Part shown: piece by piece, positions 33,615 to 52,456 of the stretch | How positions within the stretch are numbered: the first letter of the stretch is position 1 | Layout of the letters: every line of letters starts with the position of its first letter | Source of the DNA: Nocardioides sp. L-11A | GTDB taxonomy: Bacteria; Actinomycetota; Actinomycetes; Propionibacteriales; Nocardioidaceae | NCBI GenBank assembly: GCA_029961745.1 | Contig: CP124680.1 | Span: forward strand, 3,100,001-3,164,000 | Length of the DNA stretch: 64,000 nt | Reading direction: 5' to 3' | The notes under the pieces: model-generated | Databases searched by the model: none | Told to the model about the DNA's origin: nothing | The model's input: the letters and a program-made list of their open reading frames with translations, nothing else | Translations under genes and position numbers: made by a program

Positions 33615-34787
33615 TCAGGCCGACAGGATCAGGCCGCTCGTCGGCACCCCGGTGCCGGCGGTGACCAGCACATGGTGGGCGTCCGCGACCGGGTTGACCG
33701 AGGTGCCGCGGATCTGGCGCACGCCCTCGGCGATGCCGTTCATGCCGTGGATGTACGCCTCGCCGAGCTGGCCACCGTGGGTATTGACGGGCAGTCGTCC
33801 GCCGACCTCGATGGCGCCATCCCGGACGAAGTCCTTGGCCTCGCCGCGGCCGCAGAACCCGAGCTCCTCCAGCTGCATGAGGACGTACGGCGTGAAGTGG
33901 TCGTAGAGGATCGCCATCGGCATGTCCGCGGGGGTGAGCCCGGACTGCTTCCACAGCTCGCGCCCGACGACACCGATCTCCGGGATCCCGATGTCGTCGC
34001 GGTAGTAGGAGGTCATCACGAACTGGTCCCTGCCCGAGCCCTGGGCCGCTGCGGCGACGTACGCCGGGGGCTGGGCCAGGTCGCGCGCCCGCTGCGCCGA
34101 CACGACGACGAGCGCGACGGCGCCGTCGGACTCCTGGCAGCAGTCGAGCAGGTGCAACGGGTCCGCGATCATCCGGGATGCCTGGTGGTCCTCGAGGGTG
34201 ATCGGCTTGCCGTAGAAGAAGGCGGCCGGGTTGGTGGCGGCGTGCCTCCGGTCGGCGACCGCGACCCGGCCGAAGTCCGCGGAGGTGGCGCCGTACTCGT
34301 GCATGTAGCGGCGGGCCTGCATGGCGACGGTGGCTGCCGGCGTCGATAGACCGAGCGGGTAGGTCCAGGCGTTGTCGAGGCCGTTGGTGTTGACCTGGGC
34401 TGCCGCCCAGTTGGAGACCTGCCCGAAGCGGTCGCCGGAGCGCTCGTTGAAGCCGCGGTAGGCGACGACGACGTCCGCGACGCCGGTGGCGACTGCCATG
34501 GCGGCCTGCTGGACGGTCGCGCAGGCCGCGCCTCCGCCGTAGTTGATCCGGCTGAAGAAGCGCAGCTCGGGGATACCGAGCTCACGGGCCACGGCGATCT
34601 CGGACGAGGTGTCCATGGTGAACGTGACCAGGCCGTCGACGTCGGCGGGGGTGAGGCCGCAGTCGGCGAGGGCGTGCCGCACCGCCTCGACGGAGAGCTG
34701 CAGCTCGGAGCGGCCGGACTCCTTGGAGAACTCGGTCGCTCCGATGCCCGCGATGGCGGCCTTGCCGGAGAGGGTGCGCTCGCTCAT
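33615..34787 (-). CDS. ltp2: Thiolase-like lipid-transfer protein / side-chain aldolase Ltp2
   Basis: This 390-residue thiolase-superfamily protein of the SCP-x/lipid-transfer type has INYGGGAACATVQQAA, PLHLLDCCQESDGAVALV and VNTHGGQLGEAYIHGMNG. In mycobacteria Ltp2 removes the last three-carbon steroid side-chain unit as propionyl-CoA by a retro-aldol reaction, together with a DUF35 protein. It ends an operon laid out like the igr locus, and its ATG overlaps the ChsH1 stop. Confidence 0.9.
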   Translation of the reverse strand: MSERTLSGKAAIAGIGATEFSKESGRSELQLSVEAVRHALADCGLTPADVDGLVTFTMDTSSEIAVARELGIPELRFFSRINYGGGAACATVQQAAMAVATGVADVVVAYRGFNERSGDRFGQVSNWAAAQVNTNGLDNAWTYPLGLSTPAATVAMQARRYMHEYGATSADFGRVAVADRRHAATNPAAFFYGKPITLEDHQASRMIADPLHLLDCCQESDGAVALVVVSAQRARDLAQPPAYVAAAAQGSGRDQFVMTSYYRDDIGIPEIGVVGRELWKQSGLTPADMPMAILYDHFTPYVLMQLEELGFCGRGEAKDFVRDGAIEVGGRLPVNTHGGQLGEAYIHGMNGIAEGVRQIRGTSVNPVADAHHVLVTAGTGVPTSGLILSA

Positions 34788-35206
34788 GCCGCCTGCCCCC
34801 TCGGATCGAGCACAGTGACGGTGCCGATCACGTGGTCGCCGAGCGAGACCGCGCCGACCACCTTGATCGTCGCGACGCCGTCCTCGACCGCAGTCACCTC
34901 GCCGGAGAAGGTGAAGGTGTCATAGGGGTACGCCGGCGCGCCGAGCCGGATCGCGATCCCCCGGATCTGCACGTCGGGGCCTGCCCAGTCGGTCACATAG
35001 CGCTCGCACAGCGCCGTGGACGTCAGGATGTTGACGAAGATGTCCTTCGAGCCGGCCGTCTGGGCGATATCGCGGTCGTGGTGGACATCTTGGAAGTCGC
35101 GGGTCGCGATCGCGGTCGAGACGACCAGGGTCGGGGTGATGGGCAGGCTCCACTCGGGAAGCCGGTCTCCCACCTTCAGCGCGCCCACGTTCGATTCGAC
35201 CGTCAT
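34784..35206 (-). CDS. chsH1: MaoC-like enoyl-CoA hydratase subunit ChsH1
   Basis: This 140-residue hotdog-fold protein has RDFQDVHHDRDIA near residues 38-50, including the hydratase Asp/His pair, and SKDIFVNILT. It closely resembles Rv3541c as I recall it. In mycobacteria ChsH1 pairs with the MaoC part of ChsH2 to hydrate the cholesterol side-chain enoyl-CoA. It overlaps its neighbours on both sides by four bases. Confidence 0.9.
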   Translation of the reverse strand: MTVESNVGALKVGDRLPEWSLPITPTLVVSTAIATRDFQDVHHDRDIAQTAGSKDIFVNILTSTALCERYVTDWAGPDVQIRGIAIRLGAPAYPYDTFTFSGEVTAVEDGVATIKVVGAVSLGDHVIGTVTVLDPRGQAA

Positions 35207-35592
35207 CGGTCCACCTTCGTCCAGATCGGGAGGGTCAGGTCGTCGTCGACCACGTTCCAGCCGACGACCGCGCGGTCCCCGATCTCGACGGGACCGGTCA
35301 TCTCGGCCACCATCCGCACGCCCTCGTCGAGGTCGAGCAGCGCCACGACCAGGGGCAGCTCCTTGCCGGGCACCTGCGGGGCGTGGTGGACGAGGTAGGA
35401 GAAGACGGTGCCGGTGCCGGCGGCCACGACATGGCCGCGGTCGAAGGCGCCGCAGTCCGGGCAGGCCGGGCCGGGCGGATGGCGCAGCACGCCGCACGCG
35501 TTGCACTTCTGGATGCGCAGCTCATGGCTCGCTGTGCCCTCGAAGAAGTAGGCGTTGTCCCGGTTGACGACCGGGCGCACCGGGCCGCTCAC
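35203..35592 (-). CDS. DUF35 OB-fold/zinc-ribbon protein, separate ChsH2 C-domain
   Basis: This 129-residue protein has a zinc ribbon with cysteines in CNACGVLRHPPGPACPDCG (~30-48) and an OB-fold (GTVFSYLVHHAP onward). In mycobacterial ChsH2 this domain is fused after a MaoC domain and activates the Ltp2 aldolase. Here it is a free-standing gene with a GTG start overlapping the upstream MaoC stop (GTGA). Confidence 0.9.
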   Translation of the reverse strand: MSGPVRPVVNRDNAYFFEGTASHELRIQKCNACGVLRHPPGPACPDCGAFDRGHVVAAGTGTVFSYLVHHAPQVPGKELPLVVALLDLDEGVRMVAEMTGPVEIGDRAVVGWNVVDDDLTLPIWTKVDR

Positions 35593-36131
35593 GCGTCGGC
35601 CTTCGCACGCGGGACGAACTTGAGGACCCGGAACAGCATGGTCGCCACGCGCTCACTGCGCCCGTCCGGATGGTCGACGTACCAGGTGTTGCGGGAGGTC
35701 ACGAAGTAGCCGACGCCCATGCCGGTGGCCTTCGGGCCGACGACGGAGTCCAGCGCGGTGGTGACCCGCAGCCGCTCCCCCACCGTCAGGTAGCGGTCGT
35801 AGGACTGCTCGCAGTTGGTGCCGAGGACGGCGGTGAAGCCAGCGTCGGTGAGTGCCCGCATCATCGCGTGCAGCGGGTCGTCCTCGGCCGGTCTTCCGCC
35901 CAGGCCGTACATGGTCCAGACCTGGGCCATCGACGGCGGAGCCTCACCCGCCCTGAAGCGCGGGTTGTCGAGGCCGATCGCCTCGAGCCAGTTGTTGATC
36001 GTCGGCTGGTTGACCTCGTCGCGGGCGACCCGCTCGGCGGCCTCGCCCCACCCCTGGATCCGCTCCGCCTCGGCCATCACCTTGTCGTGGACGGCGGCCT
36101 CCACCAGCGGCTGCTGCTCGTGGGTGCTCAT
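35589..36131 (-). CDS. MaoC-like dehydratase, separate ChsH2 N-domain
   Basis: This 180-residue hotdog-fold protein has PPSMAQVWTMYGLGG, DDPLHAMM and GTNCEQSYDRYL, which match the N-terminal MaoC half of ChsH2 (Rv3542c type). The family partner ChsH1 supplies the catalytic residues. It lacks the DUF35 tail found in the mycobacterial protein, which is encoded by the next gene. The ATG overlaps the FadE stop (ATGA). Confidence 0.88.
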   Translation of the reverse strand: MSTHEQQPLVEAAVHDKVMAEAERIQGWGEAAERVARDEVNQPTINNWLEAIGLDNPRFRAGEAPPSMAQVWTMYGLGGRPAEDDPLHAMMRALTDAGFTAVLGTNCEQSYDRYLTVGERLRVTTALDSVVGPKATGMGVGYFVTSRNTWYVDHPDGRSERVATMLFRVLKFVPRAKADA

Positions 36132-38290
36132 CGGGGCACCCGCGGCAGGCCGAGGCCGAACATCGCGATCAGCTCGCGCTGGACCTCCTGGACCCCGCCA
36201 CCGAAGGTGAGCACGAGGTTCCGCTTGGCCTGCGCGTCGAGATAGTCGAGCAACTCCTTCGTCTCCTTCTCCCCGGCGTCTCCGTGGCGGTGCACGAGCG
36301 AGATGAGATCGGCGAGCAGGTGCTGCACCTGGTCGGAGGCGAACACCTTCGACGACGACGCGTCCGCCACCTTGATCTCGCCGGCGGCCGCGGCGCGCGC
36401 GACCTCCCAGTTGAGCAGCTCGTTGATCCGGAACACCGCGGTGGTCCGGCCGAGGACGTCGCGCACGTCGGGGCGGTCGAGCACTCCGGCCGTCCCGGCC
36501 CAGCGGACCACCCGGTCGCGCAGGCCCTCGATCCGGCCGGCGGGGCCGAGCATGACCCGCTCGTGGTTGAGCTGCGTGGTGATCAGCCGCCACCCCTGGT
36601 TCTCCTCGCCGACGAGCATGTCGACGGGGACCCGGACGTCGTTGAAGTAGGTCGCGTTGACGTGGTGGGAGCCGTCGGCGGTGATGATCGGCGTCCAGCT
36701 GTAGCCGGGGTCCTTCGTGTCCACGATCAGGATCGAGATGCCCTTGTGCTTGGGGGCGTCCGGGTCGGTGCGGACCGCGAGCCACAGGTAGTCGGCCTGG
36801 TGGCCGCCGGTGGTCCACATCTTCTGCCCGTTGACCACGTAGTGGTCTCCGTCGCGGCGCGCGGTGGTGCGCAGCGAGGCGAGGTCGGTGCCGGCGTCGG
36901 GCTCGCTGTAGCCGATCGCGAAGTGCACGTCGCCCTTGAGGATCCGCTCGAGGAAGAGGTCCTTCTGCCGCTGCGTGCCGTAGCGGATCAGGGTCGGGCC
37001 GACGGTCTGCAGGGTGACCGACGGCAGATGCACGTCGGCGTACTGCGCCTCGTTGGCGAAGATCGTCTGCTCGACCTCGCCGAGCCCGTGGCCGCCGTAC
37101 TCCTTCGGCCAGCCGACGCCCATCCAGCCGTCGTCGCCGAGGCGGCGGATCATCCGCTCGTACGTCGGCCCGTGTCGGTTCCACGCCCCCTCGACGGGGT
37201 CCGGGTCGTGGATGCCGTCGAACTCGGCCGCGACCCCGCCGAAGTAGGCGCGCAGCCGCTCCTTGAGAGCCCGCTGCTCGTCGGTGAGCTCGAGGTTCTT
37301 CGCGCCGGCGCTCTCGACCGGCACCTGCGCCCCCGTCGTGTCGAGGGCGTGCGCGAGGTCGGTGCCCCAGGTGGTCAGCGCGACGAGCGGATAGGTGATG
37401 TCGACGCCCATGCCGCCGTGGAGGTGGTGGCAGGTGCGGAAGGCGTACGGCGCCACCTGGCTCGCCCAGTAGCCGGCGACCGCGAGGTCGTCGGCGGCCG
37501 GCAGGCTCTCGGCGACGCGCCACACCGCGTTGTCGGCGGCGAGGTCGAGGGTGCGCGAGGTGACGTAGACGTCGGCCATCTGCAGCGAGACGGCCTGGAA
37601 CTCGGCGAGCGCGCGGCCGAACTGCCGGCGGCCCTTGACGTAGTCGGCGGTCAGGTCGCGGGCGCCGGCGAGCACGCCGGCAGCGGTGACGGCGAGACCC
37701 GCCCGGGCCAGGTCGCGCAGCCGGGCGGCGGCACCGTCGGCGAGCGGGTCGGCGGGAGCGCCGTCCAGGACGACGGTGTGCTGCGGCGTCGCACTCGACG
37801 CGCTCGCGGGCAGCAGGGTGACACCGGGACCGGCGGGATCGACGAGGACGACGACCTCGCCCCCGTCACCGTCCCGCGCGACCACGAGCAGACGCTCGGC
37901 GCGGTCGGCGAAGGTCACCGCCAGCTTGCGCCCGCTGACCGCGCCGTCGGCGTACGTCGCCTCGCCCTGCAGCGCAGATGTCATGACCAGCTCGCCGGCG
38001 GCGACGCCGGGCAGCAGCTCCTCGCGCTGGGCGTCGGTGCCGTGGCCGGCGAGGGTCAGCGCGCCGCAGCACAGCGTCTCCCACACCGGGACCTGCACGG
38101 CCCGGCGTCCGCTCTCGCGCAACAGCACCGCGACCGCGTCGAGGCCGAGGCCCTCGCCTCCGTACTCCTCGGGGACGGGGAGCGAGGTCAGCCCCGCGGC
38201 GGCCCAGGCGGACCACTCGCGGGCGTCGGACTCGCGCTCCAGGACCTCGCCGACGACGGCGCGGACTGCGTTGATCGCCTCTGCATCCAC
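36128..38290 (-). CDS. Fused double acyl-CoA dehydrogenase (FadE28-FadE29 / ChsE1-ChsE2)
   Basis: This 720-residue protein is two acyl-CoA dehydrogenases joined head to tail. Residues ~1-325 resemble FadE28, with RTCHHLHGGMGVDITYPL near the end of that half. Residues ~335-720 resemble FadE29 closely: DGWMGVGWPKEYGGHG, TLQTVGPTLIRYG, HFAIGYSEPDAGTDLASLR and a C-terminal FGGGVQEVQRELI. In Mycobacterium tuberculosis these are separate genes forming a heterotetramer that oxidises the 3-carbon steroid side chain. The GTG start is 8 bases from a KstR box and looks leaderless. Confidence 0.9.
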   Translation of the reverse strand: MDAEAINAVRAVVGEVLERESDAREWSAWAAAGLTSLPVPEEYGGEGLGLDAVAVLLRESGRRAVQVPVWETLCCGALTLAGHGTDAQREELLPGVAAGELVMTSALQGEATYADGAVSGRKLAVTFADRAERLLVVARDGDGGEVVVLVDPAGPGVTLLPASASSATPQHTVVLDGAPADPLADGAAARLRDLARAGLAVTAAGVLAGARDLTADYVKGRRQFGRALAEFQAVSLQMADVYVTSRTLDLAADNAVWRVAESLPAADDLAVAGYWASQVAPYAFRTCHHLHGGMGVDITYPLVALTTWGTDLAHALDTTGAQVPVESAGAKNLELTDEQRALKERLRAYFGGVAAEFDGIHDPDPVEGAWNRHGPTYERMIRRLGDDGWMGVGWPKEYGGHGLGEVEQTIFANEAQYADVHLPSVTLQTVGPTLIRYGTQRQKDLFLERILKGDVHFAIGYSEPDAGTDLASLRTTARRDGDHYVVNGQKMWTTGGHQADYLWLAVRTDPDAPKHKGISILIVDTKDPGYSWTPIITADGSHHVNATYFNDVRVPVDMLVGEENQGWRLITTQLNHERVMLGPAGRIEGLRDRVVRWAGTAGVLDRPDVRDVLGRTTAVFRINELLNWEVARAAAAGEIKVADASSSKVFASDQVQHLLADLISLVHRHGDAGEKETKELLDYLDAQAKRNLVLTFGGGVQEVQRELIAMFGLGLPRVPR

Positions 38291-38296
38291 AGCGAA

Positions 38297-38316
38297 ACTG
38301 TAACGTGTTCTAGTGT
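38297..38316. promoter_or_regulatory. KstR box with two opposed leaderless promoters
   Basis: TGTAACGTGTTCTA (38299-38312) fits TnnAACnnGTTnnA exactly. On the minus strand a -10 TACAGT (38297-38302) lies 6 nt before the FadE GTG. On the plus strand a -10 TAGTGT (38311-38316) lies 7 nt before the hydrolase ATG. One operator thus overlaps both -10 elements within a 33-bp intergenic gap. Confidence 0.75.
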
Positions 38317-38323
38317 TGGCCGC

Positions 38324-39247
38324 ATGGGGGCCGTCTCACTCGTCGATGTCGCACGCCGCCGTGTCCGGCTGCCGCCGACCGCGATCCCTCCGGGACGGAT
38401 GGTGGAGCTGCCCGGCCGGGGCGGGGCGACCTATGTCACCGACACGCCCGGCCCCCACCCCGCGGCGCCCGCCATCGTGCTGCTGCACGCGCTGGGCACG
38501 ACCGGCCTGCTCACGTGGTTCCCGGCGATCGAACCGCTCTCCCGGCGGTTCCGCGTCGTCACTCTCGACCAGCGCTGGCACGGCCGCGGCATCCAGAGCG
38601 AGACGTTCAGCCTGGTCGACTGCGCCGACGACGTGGCCGCCCTGATCGAGCTCCTCGACCTGACGGAGGTGATCGTCGGCGGCTACTCGATGGGCTCGAT
38701 CGTGGCGCAGCGGGTCTGGCGCCAGCACCCCGAGAAGGTGCACGGACTGGTGCTCGGCGCCACGACCGACCGGTTCCAGCTCACCCCCGCCGAACGGGGG
38801 TTCTTCCTCGGGATGGGCAGCACGATGCTCGCCCTGCGCGGCGTGTCGCGGTCCCGCACCGCACTCCGGGCCGCCCGGGCCGCGGCCCGCGGAGTCGACC
38901 TCGAACCGTCGGACCTGCACGCGTGGGCGTTGCGGGAGTTCCGCTCGACCAGCCCCTGGGCGGTCGGGCAGGCGCTGGCCGCGCTCGGCCGGCACCACTC
39001 GCGACCGTGGCTCTCGCGGATCGACGTACCGACCGCGGTCGTCGCGATGATGCGCGACCGGGTGATCCCGACGTCGCGACAGCTCGCGCTCGCTCGCGCG
39101 ATCCCCGGTGCGACCGTGCACGAGGTCGACGACGGGCACGCGGGGTGCGTGCTCGGCGCCGAGAGGTTCGTGCCGCGCTTCGTCGAGGCGGCCGCGACCG
39201 TCAACGCGCGGCGTCGGGACCTCCCGAGGCGTCCACAGCCGCGGTGA
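38324..39247 (+). CDS. Alpha/beta hydrolase
   Basis: This 307-residue hydrolase has the oxyanion region LLHALGTTG near 54-61, nucleophile Ser122 in GGYSMGS, and a catalytic His in DDGHAGC near 281. The substrate is unknown. A shared KstR-box promoter suggests a steroid-pathway ester or thioester. Its last 47 bases overlap the end of the opposed WS/DGAT gene. Confidence 0.85.
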   Translation: MGAVSLVDVARRRVRLPPTAIPPGRMVELPGRGGATYVTDTPGPHPAAPAIVLLHALGTTGLLTWFPAIEPLSRRFRVVTLDQRWHGRGIQSETFSLVDCADDVAALIELLDLTEVIVGGYSMGSIVAQRVWRQHPEKVHGLVLGATTDRFQLTPAERGFFLGMGSTMLALRGVSRSRTALRAARAAARGVDLEPSDLHAWALREFRSTSPWAVGQALAALGRHHSRPWLSRIDVPTAVVAMMRDRVIPTSRQLALARAIPGATVHEVDDGHAGCVLGAERFVPRFVEAAATVNARRRDLPRRPQPR

Positions 39248-40692: not shown

Positions 40693-41958
40693 ATGGGATT
40701 CGCACGTCGCCAGCTCGTCACGGCGGCGCTGACCGCCAACGCCATCCGCCCGCTCCCCGGCTTCCGAACCGGGATCCCCGCCTTCTTCGCCGGCTGGCTC
40801 ACCGGCGAGCTCGCCCCCCAGGTCCTGGGACTCACGGCCGCGGACGCGCTCGCGCACAGCCGCGGGACACGGCGCGACCCGCGAGGACTCGCCCTGGCCG
40901 CCCTGTCCTCCGCCGGGCTGGCCTTCCTGATAGCCCAGAGCCGTCGGGCCGTCATCGATGCCGAGGACGCACTGGTCGAGGGCCTCGGCGTCGACTACGT
41001 CGAGCAACTCGACGCGAAGCCCACGCCGGCCGAGCTGGCCACCCCCTGGCGGCGGATCGCCAACCCCTTCGCCTTCCGGGCCGCGGCGCGCAGGGCGGGC
41101 GTCGAGGTGCACCGCGACATCCCCTTCGCGCCGTACGGGCGGCGGGGGCTGCTCGACGTCTACACCTCCGAGGTCACCCCCGCCGCCGGGGCGCCGGTGC
41201 TGCTCCAGGTGCACGGCGGCGGGTGGACGATCGGCAACAAGGACCAGCAGGGCCTGCCCCTCATGCAGCACCTGGCCGCCAAGGGCTGGGTCTGCGTCGC
41301 GATCAACTACCGCCTCGCGCCCCGTGACCCGTGGCCGGCACAGATCGTCGACGTGAAGGCCGCGATCGCATGGATCAAGGCCCATATCACCGAGTACGGC
41401 GGCGATCCCGACTATCTCGCGATCACCGGCGGCTCCGCGGGCGGCCACCTCACCGCCCTCGCCGCGGTGACGCCGAACGCGCCGGAGTTCCAGCCCGGCT
41501 TCGAGTCCGCTGACACCAGCGTCCAGGCGGCCGTCCCCTACTACGGCGTCTACGATCTGGCCGGTGCCAGCGGCCTGCGCACCGCCGAGCTGATGCGGGA
41601 CAAGTTCCTCGCTCCCCTCGTGTTCAAGCGCTCGCCGCGCTCGGAGCGCACCGTCTTCGAACAGGCCAGTCCGCTGCTGCGCGTGACTCCCGAGGCTCCC
41701 GACTTCTTCGTCATCCACGGGTCGCGCGACACCCTGGTCGACCCGGGACAGGCCCGCGCCTTCGTCGCGGCGCTGCGCTCGACATCGAGGCGGACGGTGA
41801 CCTATGCCGAGCTGCCGGGCGCCCAGCACGCCTTCGACATCTTCCCCTCGATCCGCTCCCAGCACCTGGTCCGCGCCACCGACCGGTTCCTGCACTGGCA
41901 CTGGAACAGGTGGCGGCGAGCGCAGTCGTCCACAGGCGCGGATGAAGCGCTGGCGTGA
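40693..41958 (+). CDS. LipC-like alpha/beta esterase (HSL family)
   Basis: This 421-residue hormone-sensitive-lipase-type esterase has oxyanion motif HGGGW at 174-178, nucleophile Ser248 in GGSAGG, catalytic Asp in HGSRDTLVDP and His in GAQHAFD. Residues 1-~90 are an extra hydrophobic N-terminal part. As I recall, mycobacterial LipC is also next to a WS/DGAT gene, so the pair may release and store acyl chains. Confidence 0.88.
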   Translation: MGFARRQLVTAALTANAIRPLPGFRTGIPAFFAGWLTGELAPQVLGLTAADALAHSRGTRRDPRGLALAALSSAGLAFLIAQSRRAVIDAEDALVEGLGVDYVEQLDAKPTPAELATPWRRIANPFAFRAAARRAGVEVHRDIPFAPYGRRGLLDVYTSEVTPAAGAPVLLQVHGGGWTIGNKDQQGLPLMQHLAAKGWVCVAINYRLAPRDPWPAQIVDVKAAIAWIKAHITEYGGDPDYLAITGGSAGGHLTALAAVTPNAPEFQPGFESADTSVQAAVPYYGVYDLAGASGLRTAELMRDKFLAPLVFKRSPRSERTVFEQASPLLRVTPEAPDFFVIHGSRDTLVDPGQARAFVAALRSTSRRTVTYAELPGAQHAFDIFPSIRSQHLVRATDRFLHWHWNRWRRAQSSTGADEALA

Positions 41959-41973
41959 GAGCCGAGCGCGGCC

Positions 41974-41979
41974 TAGGGT
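41974..41979 (+). promoter_or_regulatory. Candidate -10 for the heptad-repeat gene
   Basis: TAGGGT lies about 28 nt before ATG 42008, leaving a short leader that contains GGAGG at good spacing. Confidence 0.4.
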
Positions 41980-42007
41980 CGCCGTACCCGTCCACCTCGG
42001 AGGAACG

Positions 42008-42373
42008 ATGCCCACGCCGAATCCCGACCTCGAGCTCCGCGTCGAGCGCAACACCAACGACGTCGTCGCGCTCTACGGCCTGCTGACCGAGCAGGGCCGC
42101 AGGATCGCCGTGATCGAAGACAAGATCACCGTGATCGAGAACAAGATCACCGTGATCGAAGACAAGATCACCGTGATCGAAGACAAGATCACCGTGATCG
42201 AAGACAAGATCACCGTGATCGAAGACAAGATCACCGTGATCGAAGACAAGATCACCGTGATCGAAGACAAGATCACCGTGATCGAAGACAAGGTCACCTC
42301 GATCGACAAGACCCTCGTCGAGCACGGCCGACAGCTCGCCGAGATCCTGAAGCGTCTGCCACCGGCGGCCTGA
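42008..42373 (+). CDS. Heptad-repeat coiled-coil protein
   Basis: This 121-residue protein of unknown function has an N-terminal ~35 residues (NPDLELRVERNTNDVVALYGLL), then nine perfectly spaced heptads (residues 35-97) of consensus VIEDKIT, and a C-terminal helix (SIDKTLVEHGRQLAEILKRL). Ile at positions 2 and 6 gives a 3-4 hydrophobic pattern, so a long parallel coiled coil is expected. It has GGAGG 4 nt before the ATG. It has no signal peptide or membrane segment. It lies between the esterase gene and the convergent fadE34. Confidence 0.85.
   Translation: MPTPNPDLELRVERNTNDVVALYGLLTEQGRRIAVIEDKITVIENKITVIEDKITVIEDKITVIEDKITVIEDKITVIEDKITVIEDKITVIEDKVTSIDKTLVEHGRQLAEILKRLPPAA
42110..42298 (+). 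repeat. 21-bp minisatellite, nine units
   Basis: Nine consecutive 21-bp units encode the heptads of the coiled-coil gene. Most are identical; unit 2 has an Asp-to-Asn codon change and unit 9 an Ile-to-Val change. With a unit length divisible by three, unit gain or loss keeps the frame. Confidence 0.95.
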
Positions 42374-42411: not shown

Positions 42412-44457
42412 TCAGCGCGGCAGGCCGAGGATCCGCTCGCCGGCGACATTGCGCAGGATCTGCGTCGTCCCGCCGGCGATGGAGAGGCAGCGGGTGTTGA
42501 GCTGCTCCCAGACGTCGGCGGTCAGCGGGTCGCCGGACTCCTTGGCGAGGGCGCCGAGCAGGGCGAGGTCATCCCCCTGGAGCCGGACCACGAGCTCGGA
42601 GGAGTCCTGACGACTGCGGACGCCGAGCAGCTTGGCGACGCTCGACTCGGCTCCGGGGCCGTGGCCGCCCAGGGCACGCAGCGTGGTGCGGACGCCGAGC
42701 AGCGCACAGACGGTGGCGAGGGCGACCTGGTGACCGACCGCGACCCGCTCGACCGGACCGAGGTCGCGGGTGGCGGCCAGCTCGACGGCCCGCTCGACGC
42801 TCTTGGTCAGCCGGGCGCTCGCCATCGCGACGCGCTCGTTGGCGAGCGTCGTGCGGGCCAGCCGCCAGCCGTCGCCCGGCTCGGCGACGACGCACTCGTC
42901 GGGAACGAAGACGTCGTCGAGGAAGACCTCGTTGAACAGCGCCTCACCGGTGATCTCGCGCAGCGGGCGCACCTCGATGCCCGCGGAGCGCATGTCGACG
43001 AGGAAGTAGGTGATCCCCTTGTGCTGCGGCACGTCGGCGTCGGTGCGGGCCAGACAGATCCCCCAGTCGGCGCGCTCGGCCACCGACGTCCACACCTTCT
43101 GGCCGGTCAGCGACCAGCCGCCCTCGACCCGGACCGCGCGGGTGCGCAGTGAGGCGAGGTCGGACCCCGAACCCGGCTCGGAGAACAGCTGGCACCAGGT
43201 GAGCTCGCCCAGCAGCGAGGCCCGGACGTAGCGCTCGCGCTGGGCGTCGGTGCCGTGGCCGAGGATCGTCGGCACCGCCCAGCCGGCGATGACCAGGTCC
43301 GGACGGACCACGCCCGCACGACCCAACTCCTGGTCGATGACGATCTGCAGCGTCGGGTCCGCACCCAGGCCGTAGGGCGCCGGCCAGTGCGGGGTCAGGT
43401 AGCCGACGTCGACCAGGGCCGCGCGCTGCTCCGCCCGCGGCAGGGCGGCGATCCGCTCGGCGGTGGCCCGGGCCTCGGCGCGGACCGCGGCGTCGCGGCC
43501 CTCGAGGTCGACATCCACCCGGCGGCGTACGCCGGCCACGGCAGCGGCGGTCACCCGCTCGGCAGCGGCGTCGGCGGAGCCCACGAGTGCCCGCAGGGTC
43601 AACGCACGGCGGAGATAGAGATGGGCATCGTGCTCGTGGGTGAACCCGATCCCGCCGAGCACCTGGATGCACGACTTCGCGACCTCCACGGCGCCGTCGA
43701 AGCAGACGGCCTGCGCGACGTCGACGGCGAAGGCCCACTGATCCTGCTCGCTGTCCCCCGCATCCGGCGCCGGGGCGGCCGCGGCGGCGTCCCAGGCCGC
43801 GGCGGTCACCGCCTCCGCCGTCTCGAGCATCTGGGCGCACAAGTGCTTGATGGCCTGGAAGGCACCGATCCGCTGGCCGAACTGCTCGCGGACCTTGGCG
43901 TAGTCGACCGCGGTCTCCAGGCACCAGCGGGTGACGCCCGCGGCCTCGGCAGCAGCGAGGGTGACCGCGAGCCGGTGGCGGCGCTCGTCGGGCGCACCCA
44001 CGGCGGCGCCGACGATCCGGGCATGCCGGGCGCTGAGATCGATGCCCTGCTCCGGGACGACCTCCACACCCTCCCCGGCGTCGAGGAGCAGCAGCTCGCG
44101 GGCCGCGCCGCCGTCCCAGACCGCACCGGCGGGATGCACCTGCACGCCGTACCGGCCCGGACGGCCGGTCAGCAGCGAGCCGACCGCGGCACCGAGGAGC
44201 CCCCCGGGCACGAGTTCGTGGGCGCAGGCCTCGAGCGCGACCGCCTGGTCGAGCACGGTGCCCCCGCCGCCCCCTCCGGACTCGGCGACCGCGATCGCGG
44301 CGACGCCCATCTCCTCGGCGGCCGACCAGGTCGCCGCGAAGTCCGCGGCGGTCTCGCCCTCGGCGGTCCGCACGGCCGCGAGCGGGGACAGGCTCGCGGC
44401 CCACTTGCGCAGGCTGTTGGCGAGCTCGACCTGCTCGTCGGTGATGCCGATCGACAT
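42412..44457 (-). CDS. fadE34: Double-domain acyl-CoA dehydrogenase FadE34 (ChsE3-like)
   Basis: This 681-residue protein also has two acyl-CoA dehydrogenase modules. The N-terminal half has SGGGGGGTVLDQAVALEA and a helical end with VLGGIGFTHEHDAHLYLRRA (~277-296). The C-terminal half has CQLFSEPGSGSDLASLRTRAV and ends GGTTQILRNVAGERILGLPR. This natural fusion matches FadE34/ChsE3, which acts on the five-carbon steroid side chain. The ATG has GGGAGAG about 7 nt upstream and a perfect KstR box 26 bp away. Confidence 0.88.
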   Translation of the reverse strand: MSIGITDEQVELANSLRKWAASLSPLAAVRTAEGETAADFAATWSAAEEMGVAAIAVAESGGGGGGTVLDQAVALEACAHELVPGGLLGAAVGSLLTGRPGRYGVQVHPAGAVWDGGAARELLLLDAGEGVEVVPEQGIDLSARHARIVGAAVGAPDERRHRLAVTLAAAEAAGVTRWCLETAVDYAKVREQFGQRIGAFQAIKHLCAQMLETAEAVTAAAWDAAAAAPAPDAGDSEQDQWAFAVDVAQAVCFDGAVEVAKSCIQVLGGIGFTHEHDAHLYLRRALTLRALVGSADAAAERVTAAAVAGVRRRVDVDLEGRDAAVRAEARATAERIAALPRAEQRAALVDVGYLTPHWPAPYGLGADPTLQIVIDQELGRAGVVRPDLVIAGWAVPTILGHGTDAQRERYVRASLLGELTWCQLFSEPGSGSDLASLRTRAVRVEGGWSLTGQKVWTSVAERADWGICLARTDADVPQHKGITYFLVDMRSAGIEVRPLREITGEALFNEVFLDDVFVPDECVVAEPGDGWRLARTTLANERVAMASARLTKSVERAVELAATRDLGPVERVAVGHQVALATVCALLGVRTTLRALGGHGPGAESSVAKLLGVRSRQDSSELVVRLQGDDLALLGALAKESGDPLTADVWEQLNTRCLSIAGGTTQILRNVAGERILGLPR

Positions 44458-44482: not shown

Positions 44483-46317
<1,835 letters not shown>

Positions 46318-48381: not shown

Positions 48382-48395
48382 TGGAACGTGTTCCA
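48382..48395. promoter_or_regulatory. Perfect palindromic KstR box between GT operon and kstR
   Basis: TGGAACGTGTTCCA matches TnnAACnnGTTnnA, and its arms TGGAAC...GTTCCA are perfectly paired around a GT centre. It lies 53 bp from the glycosyltransferase start and 80 bp from the kstR start. It would give autoregulation of kstR and control of the divergent operon. Confidence 0.75.
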
Positions 48396-48475: not shown

Positions 48476-49087
48476 GTGACCATCGCGAACCCGTCCACGT
48501 CCGACGATCTCGGATCGGCCGCACAGCGGGAGCGCCGCAAGCGAATCCTCGACGCGACCTACGACCTCGCCAAGTCCGGCGGCTTCGACGCCGTCCAGAT
48601 GCGCGCGGTCGCCGAGCGGGCCGACGTGGCCCTCGGCACGCTGTACCGCTACTTCCCCTCGAAGATCCACCTGCTGGTCTCGGCCCTCGGCCGCCAGTTC
48701 GACGAGGCCTCGGCCCGTCTCGGCGAGCGCGAGATCCCGGGCGACACGCAGGCCGAGCGGGTGCTGTACGTCCTCAAGCGGATGGCCCGCGGCATGCAGG
48801 GCGACCCCAAGCTGACCGAGGCGCTCACCCGCGCCTTCATGTTCGCCGACAGCAGCGTCACCAACGAGATCCACGTCGTCGGCATGGCGATGACCTCGAT
48901 CGTGACCCACGCGATGCACGGCGGCGTCCCGGACGAGGGCGCGCTGACCGACCAGGACGTCGCCATCGCGCGCGTCATCGGCGACGTGTGGCTCTCCGCG
49001 CTGGTGGCCTGGGTGACCGGCCGCTCCACGGCGGCGGAGACCGCGGCGCACATGGAGACCGCGGTCGGCCTCATCCTGCGCGACTGA
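48476..49087 (+). CDS. kstR: TetR-family cholesterol-catabolism repressor KstR
   Basis: This 203-residue TetR regulator has an N-terminal helix-turn-helix (~18-65): AQRERRKRILDAT, VQMRAVAERADVALGTLYRYF and PSKIHLLVSALGR are nearly the same as in mycobacterial KstR as I remember it. The C-terminal domain would bind a 3-oxo-cholestenoyl-CoA-type ligand and release DNA. The GTG start at 48476 lies downstream of a KstR palindrome. Five good sites plus one weaker site in this window define its likely local regulon. Confidence 0.92.
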   Translation: MTIANPSTSDDLGSAAQRERRKRILDATYDLAKSGGFDAVQMRAVAERADVALGTLYRYFPSKIHLLVSALGRQFDEASARLGEREIPGDTQAERVLYVLKRMARGMQGDPKLTEALTRAFMFADSSVTNEIHVVGMAMTSIVTHAMHGGVPDEGALTDQDVAIARVIGDVWLSALVAWVTGRSTAAETAAHMETAVGLILRD

Positions 49088-52440: not shown

Positions 52441-52456
52441 ACTGTAACGTGTTCTA
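52441..52456 (-). promoter_or_regulatory. KstR box over leaderless promoter of the ferredoxin-reductase operon
   Basis: TGTAACGTGTTCTA (52443-52456) fits the KstR consensus. Its 18-bp surround AACTGTAACGTGTTCTAG is identical to the site at 38.3 kb. The minus-strand -10 TACAGT (52441-52446) lies 6 nt before GTG 52434, the same geometry as at 38.3 kb. Confidence 0.75.

Follow-up and report, generated by a model that had tools for sequence, protein, structure and literature searches.

The igr operon of mycobacteria and rhodococci encodes the acyl-CoA dehydrogenase ChsE1–ChsE2 (FadE28–FadE29), the hydratase ChsH1–ChsH2 and the aldolase Ltp2. Passages in PMC12502768, PMC11321319 and PMC6678751 describe ChsE1–ChsE2 as an α2β2 assembly, ChsH1 as the partner of the MaoC part of ChsH2, and Ltp2 as the partner of the DUF35 part of ChsH2. 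In the window analysed here, a 64,000-nucleotide stretch of the genome of the soil bacterium Nocardioides sp. L-11A (5.68 Mb, single contig; positions 3,100,001 to 3,164,000 of CP124680.1), the same pieces are packaged differently from igr: a single polypeptide takes the place of FadE28 and FadE29, ChsH2 is divided in two, and the hydratase and aldolase have no covalent link. Is the dehydrogenase a true fusion, is the divided ChsH2 still functional, and do the two changes belong together? The best explanation is very probably a fused-chain ChsE1–ChsE2 next to a hydratase and an aldolase that are covalently unlinked and coordinated by coupled translation. The observations behind it are the architecture, the homology of the pieces, the phylogenetic order, the conservation of active-site and zinc residues and the KstR-type operators; from these we infer the assembly state, the coupling, the substrate, and the loss or survival of a hydratase–aldolase complex.

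The unit lies on the minus strand. The dehydrogenase (720 aa, GTG start; 36128–38290), identified from its open reading frame (ORF), Pfam and trees, contains two N-terminal and two C-terminal dehydrogenase stretches and one middle domain in Pfam; residues ~1–322 form the N half (FadE28) and residues ~329–720 the C half (FadE29), which carries the catalytic-type Glu577. The MaoC part of ChsH2, the expected hydratase partner of ChsH1, is a free gene of 180 aa (35589–36131) and matches the solved ChsH1/ChsH2 structures at the sequence level (4w78_A, E = 4.5e-38; 4wnb_A, E = 5e-38). The DUF35 part is likewise a free gene (129 aa, GTG start; 35203–35592) with the Pfam domains zf-ChsH2 and OB_ChsH2_C, all four zinc-ribbon cysteines and a sequence match to the ChsH2-DUF35 structure 6ok1_B (E = 2.6e-37). 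ChsH1, the catalytic MaoC hydratase subunit (140 aa; 34784–35206), matches 4wnb_B (E = 2.6e-48), and the Ltp2 retro-aldolase (390 aa; 33615–34787), with thiolase domains in Pfam, matches solved Ltp2 6ok1_A (E = 4.2e-179) and the curated model NF005892 'lipid-transfer protein' (704.7 bits, cut-off 469). Each of the four junctions is a four-base stop/start overlap (ATGA, GTGA, ATGA, ATGA); at GTGA the MaoC stop overlaps the DUF35 start in a separate frame, i.e. there is no single ChsH2 chain. The original prediction, made from the sequence of the window, had recognized the igr gene order, and the five pieces in order, with their matches to solved ChsH1, ChsH2 and Ltp2, bear this out. The span that it gave (35203–38290) holds three of the five genes, and the unit runs on to 33615. 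Architecture and homology of the pieces are near certain; judged by its sequence, the unit is an igr-type operon for the sterol side chain with repackaged subunits, resembling igr in gene order, orthologous proteins and catalytic-type dehydrogenase and hydratase residues. Its role would be to strip the side chain of its final three carbons (the propionyl residue).

Identity and spread of the fused dehydrogenase

A single-chain dehydrogenase could also be a FadE34/ChsE3-type enzyme, an anciently single-chain paralogue, placed in the FadE28–FadE29 position. Such enzymes are likewise ~700 aa with two dehydrogenase halves per chain, which makes them a precedent for the outcome of the fusion, and one of 681 aa, placed by trees, lies 4 kb off at 42412–44457. 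To the contrary, the two halves of the 720-aa protein, placed on separate trees with hand-chosen outgroup rows, group with FadE29 (C half, 42 rows) and with FadE28 (N half, 41 rows). Forcing the C half into FadE34 is 131 log units worse (p value of the approximately unbiased test, p-AU, 1.0e-10), and forcing the N half is 154 log units worse (p-AU 7.3e-6). Ten FadE34 rows including that of the window form one clade of their own in both half trees (100/100 and 100/99), and this FadE34 and the FadE26/FadE27 pair of the genome (L158; FadE26 named by 560 bits to 4x28_A, FadE27 by adjacency) branch outside the FadE28 and FadE29 groups. The names FadE28, FadE29 and FadE34 were assigned via gene order and the literature, not curated records. 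FadE34/ChsE3 also differs in acting at another step, according to a passage in PMC6678751. Under the models used, both half trees rule out the paralogue, which is scarcely credible, and the predicted FadE28 and FadE29 identities of the halves hold.

Unlike the two polypeptides of ChsE1–ChsE2, the enzyme is one 720-aa open frame and is therefore filed as a fused variant rather than as a heteromer. Glu577, which we take to be the catalytic Glu of the FadE29 part, sits in an NHERV stretch common to 4x28_A and 6wy8_B and is Glu in 83/83 rows, and the Asp-His block of ChsH1 is constant in the same number of rows. The dehydrogenase tree was likewise built from 83 distinct rows of 87.

Regarding the spread of the fusion, 44 of 149 genomes in a family draw matched the 720-aa protein at E ≤ 1e-115, and 50 of 293 did so at E ≤ 1e-110 in an overlapping order draw. 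The combined set of 67 (44 plus 23 new) was classified completely, including one genome cut by a contig end (G102, 27508 bases) and one that matches residues 152–720 only (G146). The dehydrogenase is fused in all 67 of these operon-bearing Nocardioidaceae genomes, and in each of them the order of the five pieces, all on one strand, is unchanged. Because of this constancy, the fusion appears to be an old change in the ancestor of the Nocardioidaceae, and this placement is well supported. The original prediction had named relatives that show its arrangement as the ancestral state as grounds for its own rejection; within the family this is indeed the case for the fusion, whereas it does not hold against the outgroups, in which the genes are mostly separate (56/60 named loci outside the family). 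Among the best 80 of at least 590 stretches matched in a contig scan with Ltp2, 56 have separate FadE28/FadE29 and unsplit ChsH2, 14 are fused and split, nine are fused and unsplit, and one (L014) has a split ChsH2 in a locus too short for the dehydrogenase state to be called.

Outside the Nocardioidaceae, fused genes were found in five genomes of four lineages (Rhodococcus sp. 1163 and BP22, Gordonia malaquae, Amycolatopsis palatopharyngis and G653), which adjoin unfused relatives or stand apart from one another. The best trees carry five changes of dehydrogenase state, one in the Nocardioidaceae and four in the other actinobacterial lineages. Of 394 genomes drawn from the whole class, 63 match the 720-aa protein at E ≤ 1e-118: 13 family members, G653, 42 that match the C half only, and seven whose alignment spans both genes and is interrupted by a single in-frame stop. 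Loss of one stop codon could be enough for each fusion, and the simplest route in the Nocardioidaceae ancestor would be loss of the stop codon between adjacent in-frame FadE28 and FadE29 genes. The linkers differ among the fused lineages; in the Nocardioidaceae the old FadE29 start lies in a short linker ending KNLEL-like. No start codon occurs at the old FadE29 Met position in any of the 67 family genomes (Lys in 61 of the 64 genomes that fit the motif; Lys, Glu and Lys in the remaining three). The fused chain would form a dimer equivalent to α2β2 ChsE1–ChsE2. Fusion has arisen repeatedly, five times on the best trees, which suggests that a single chain is compatible with this heteromer. A single-gene dehydrogenase would also be handy for making steroid-processing enzymes.

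Two further loci that looked fused (L176 and L183) are artefacts and were not counted; they are short and lack most of fadE28, and in their genomes only the C half finds a match. In six distant loci (L190, L191, L193, L195, L198 and L200; family codes f22, f86, f71 and f95), the order is fadE29, chsH2, fadE28, chsH1 and the dehydrogenase genes are non-adjacent; adjacency of fadE28 and fadE29 may itself be derived.

Three states of ChsH2

Of the 67 family genomes, 40 have a split ChsH2, 14 a canonical one and 13 one that is fused to ChsH1. By genus code (g1 is the genus of the window, Nocardioides), the split form is found in 36/40 genomes of g1 and 4/16 of g5, and the canonical form in one g1, 12 g5 and one g23 genome. 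The form fused to ChsH1 is a single open frame, MaoC–DUF35–MaoC, present in three g1 genomes, 2/3 of g23 and 8/8 of g19 (L106, L110, L113, L114, L116, L117, L119, L140, L205, L213, L214, L219 and L220); no mention of this triple fusion was found in the parts of the literature consulted. Outside the family, ChsH2 is unsplit in 60/60 named loci with both domains called, and in 106/106 when loci of the same genome are kept unmerged (three more loci were uncalled). The original prediction had considered the two changes in one operon unusual; the fused and split operon is in fact the rule in Nocardioides (36/40). Since it recurs in 40/67 genomes, with the same gene order in 67/67, it is not the product of chance or assembly error.

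The MaoC and DUF35 genes are in different reading frames, as would be expected if decay or a sequencing frameshift had broken ChsH2. This reading is extremely improbable and is rejected by the recurrence of the split, by the start–stop overlaps, by the four zinc cysteines present in 40/40 split rows, and by the ratios of nonsynonymous to synonymous substitution (dN/dS) measured against seven relatives, which are 0.05–0.38 over the five pieces, 0.15–0.26 for DUF35 and 0.22–0.38 for MaoC. DUF35 lies in the +2 (−1) frame of MaoC in 38/40 splits, and in the same 38 its nearest start overlaps the MaoC stop, with 32 four-base overlaps and six of the TGATG type. A programmed −1 frameshift at such an overlap would still yield some full-length MaoC–DUF35, and the frame and the overlap are both suitable for it; however, a slippery X_XXY_YYZ heptamer occurs in the usable overlap (last 120 nt) of only 1/40 splits, so this alternative was rejected as very improbable.

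On the MaoC + DUF35 + ChsH1 tree (43 rows, as in all ChsH2-region trees), the split needs one change. The split clade is supported at 96/93, and its nearest neighbours on the tree, G093 (L103) and Nocardioides ferulae (L015), have an unsplit ChsH2 (100/95 and 100/94). On the DUF35-only tree, the free DUF35 joins the DUF35 of the nearest unsplit ChsH2, of the N. ferulae type (93/88), and stands apart from five other DUF35 domains, four from this genome and one from G846. From this tree, with moderate support, and from the match to 6ok1_B, the free DUF35 derives from the DUF35 of ChsH2, in agreement with the predicted division of ChsH2. Its acquisition from another family is rejected by the same tree, also with moderate support, the five other DUF35 rows being very long branches. 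Apparently ChsH2 was split once, inside Nocardioides and later than the fusion.

On the ChsH2-region tree, the four g5 splits (L108, L207, L212 and L216) are nested in the split clade of Nocardioides (99/95); on the dehydrogenase tree they lie among other g5 genomes. Both alternatives were rejected: forcing their dehydrogenase with the Nocardioides splits gives p-AU 1.9e-54 on the 83-row set, and forcing their ChsH2 region with five g5 genomes gives p-AU 1.9e-5. With eight g5 rows the latter value is 3e-4, and two of these rows (L215 and L208) are placed elsewhere in the tree; the retest used five of the six remaining rows, L109 also being omitted. Because the g5 placements conflict between the trees, the split module is read as having moved without the dehydrogenase, i.e. 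the trees indicate that the split ChsH2 piece entered a second genus by transfer. A concatenated tree that placed L020/L108 with Nocardioides was dropped for history, since the separate trees show two mixed histories. As read from these trees, the enzyme parts of the operon have been joined and separated repeatedly across the Nocardioidaceae.

The original prediction had called fusion and fission reciprocal. They are not linked events, because 27/67 fused family genomes are unsplit (14 canonical and 13 triple) and all five fused genomes outside the family also keep ChsH2 whole. The place of the fusion and of the split in the order of events is well supported; that of the triple fusion is not.

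Several points weigh against the account given above. The trees give no firm order for the triple, canonical and split states. With 129 columns, an unsettled bootstrap and an outgroup that is not one-sided, the DUF35-only tree is weak. The operon recombines between lineages, and the dehydrogenase tree alone needs four changes for the split, whose single origin follows from reading the g5 cases as transfers. Starred branches alone force 2 and 3 non-family fusions, compared with 4 on the best trees. Gordonia malaquae (L037) and Amycolatopsis palatopharyngis (L076) retain ATG at the old FadE29 start. Lastly, GTG is among the 15 junction codons examined in 35/67 family genomes (TTG or ATG also in two), and because of this GTG a C half may be started separately.

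Hydratase and aldolase without a tether

In the preferred explanation, the second and later step would be an event in the linker of ChsH2 that changed the frame and set MaoC apart from DUF35 in Nocardioides. MaoC with ChsH1 would then form the hydratase, and DUF35 with Ltp2 the aldolase, as two untethered complexes, the covalent tether being replaced by overlapping and probably translationally coupled genes. The closest experimental parallel is ORF40–44 of Comamonas testosteroni TA441, which encodes the same enzyme set; in the portion of PMC12502768 consulted, the MaoC and DUF35 of ORF40, expressed apart, retained hydratase and aldolase activity. The Comamonas split is laboratory-made and that of Nocardioides natural. 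Because both activities were kept there, the enzymes should cope without the tether.

The original prediction had conjectured that the fusion would fix the stoichiometry of the dehydrogenase and that the split would leave DUF35 to Ltp2 alone; both may be the case. A free DUF35 might also serve several aldolases or thiolases besides Ltp2. In addition to the operon genes, the genome contains eight matches to Ltp2-like thiolases and five to zf-ChsH2, and in Mycolicibacterium neoaurum a DUF35 protein that is likewise free, ChsH4, acts together with the steroid aldolase Atf1, as described in part of PMC10398937. Such sharing is unlikely, however: all five of these zf-ChsH2 matches have one of the eight thiolases no more than 1.5 kb away, so that at least five of the thiolases seem to have their own partners, and the free DUF35 gene stands between the MaoC gene and chsH1 in 40/40 splits. 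ChsH4–Atf1 further differs in belonging to another operon and another reaction; ChsH4 is known here by its description, and the window DUF35 matches ChsH2 of 6ok1.

A bolder reading, which we hold only tentatively and consider less likely than not to be the full story, takes the Nocardioidaceae as a natural series of joined MaoC–DUF35–MaoC, textbook form and free parts with the dehydrogenase always fused, in which the Nocardioides hydratase and aldolase would be two free enzymes that form no complex and selection would keep equal synthesis rather than channelling. If so, channelling by the tether is not what selection maintains in Nocardioides. According to part of PMC12329534, the reason for the Shy–Sal assembly is unclear, and channelling in others, including ChsH1–ChsH2–Ltp2, is still to be determined. 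One bacterial family offers related enzymes in tethered, doubly tethered and untethered form, with which the tether question can be asked of natural proteins, and the split variant is useful for asking why the hydratase–aldolase tether exists.

Among other known systems, ChsH3, CasD and CasQ carry two MaoC domains per chain, a precedent for the triple fusion, and differ from it in having no DUF35 (from the part of PMC11321319 consulted). The DUF35 of the window has a cysteine zinc ribbon, which is missing from 13/15 outgroup rows. Overall, DUF35 domains that lack the CxxC..CxxC ribbon occur in 13/83 rows, all of them outgroup rows (L032, L034, L041, L055, L053, L079, L045, L174, L076, L141, L030, L037 and L072), and 68 family rows have it.

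Within the genus, the gene table passage of PMC7807495 lists KR76_12325–12345 of Nocardioides simplex VKM Ac-2033D as chsE2/fadE29, chsH2/casM, casN, chsH1 and ltp2, all KstR-marked and four of the five also bearing a '+', with a single dehydrogenase gene and no chsE1. This gene list suggests that the N. simplex igr genes share the architecture of the window. The text of PMC7807495 gave no matches for 'fused', 'fusion' or 'DUF35', and the companion paper PMC7593942 gave none for the queried terms. In the part of PMC4810484 consulted, Nocardioides is a predicted steroid degrader, without operon-level detail. The arrangement is thus present in public annotation, and no description of a FadE28–FadE29 fusion or a ChsH2 fission was found in the portions of the open-licence literature searched.

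KstR-type operators and the sterol setting

The mycobacterial and rhodococcal igr operon is under KstR control. In the window, a KstR-type operator, TGTAACGTGTTCTA (38299–38312), lies eight bases upstream of the dehydrogenase start codon and is an exact match to TnnAACnnGTTnnA, which we take to be the KstR operator consensus. The window contains four exact consensus matches, and its shuffles contain none. Across the family, 65/66 genomes have the motif in the 200 nt preceding the fused gene, as against 0/1287 control windows; the genome cut by a contig end (G102) was excluded, and 16 genomes had less than 200 nt upstream.

The other three operators are at 44483–44496, before the FadE34 gene, at 48382–48395, beside a TetR-family gene (48476–49087, Pfam), and at 52443–52456. 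Pfam on ten further ORFs of the window identified three of Mce4/MlaE type at 56–63 kb. The surroundings are a sterol-catabolism region. A divergent ORF at 38324–39247, α/β-hydrolase-like by eye, has its operator region in common with the operon. Lastly, an ORF at 41804–42373 contains many copies of ITVIEDK, a short tandem repeat with a coiled-coil look.

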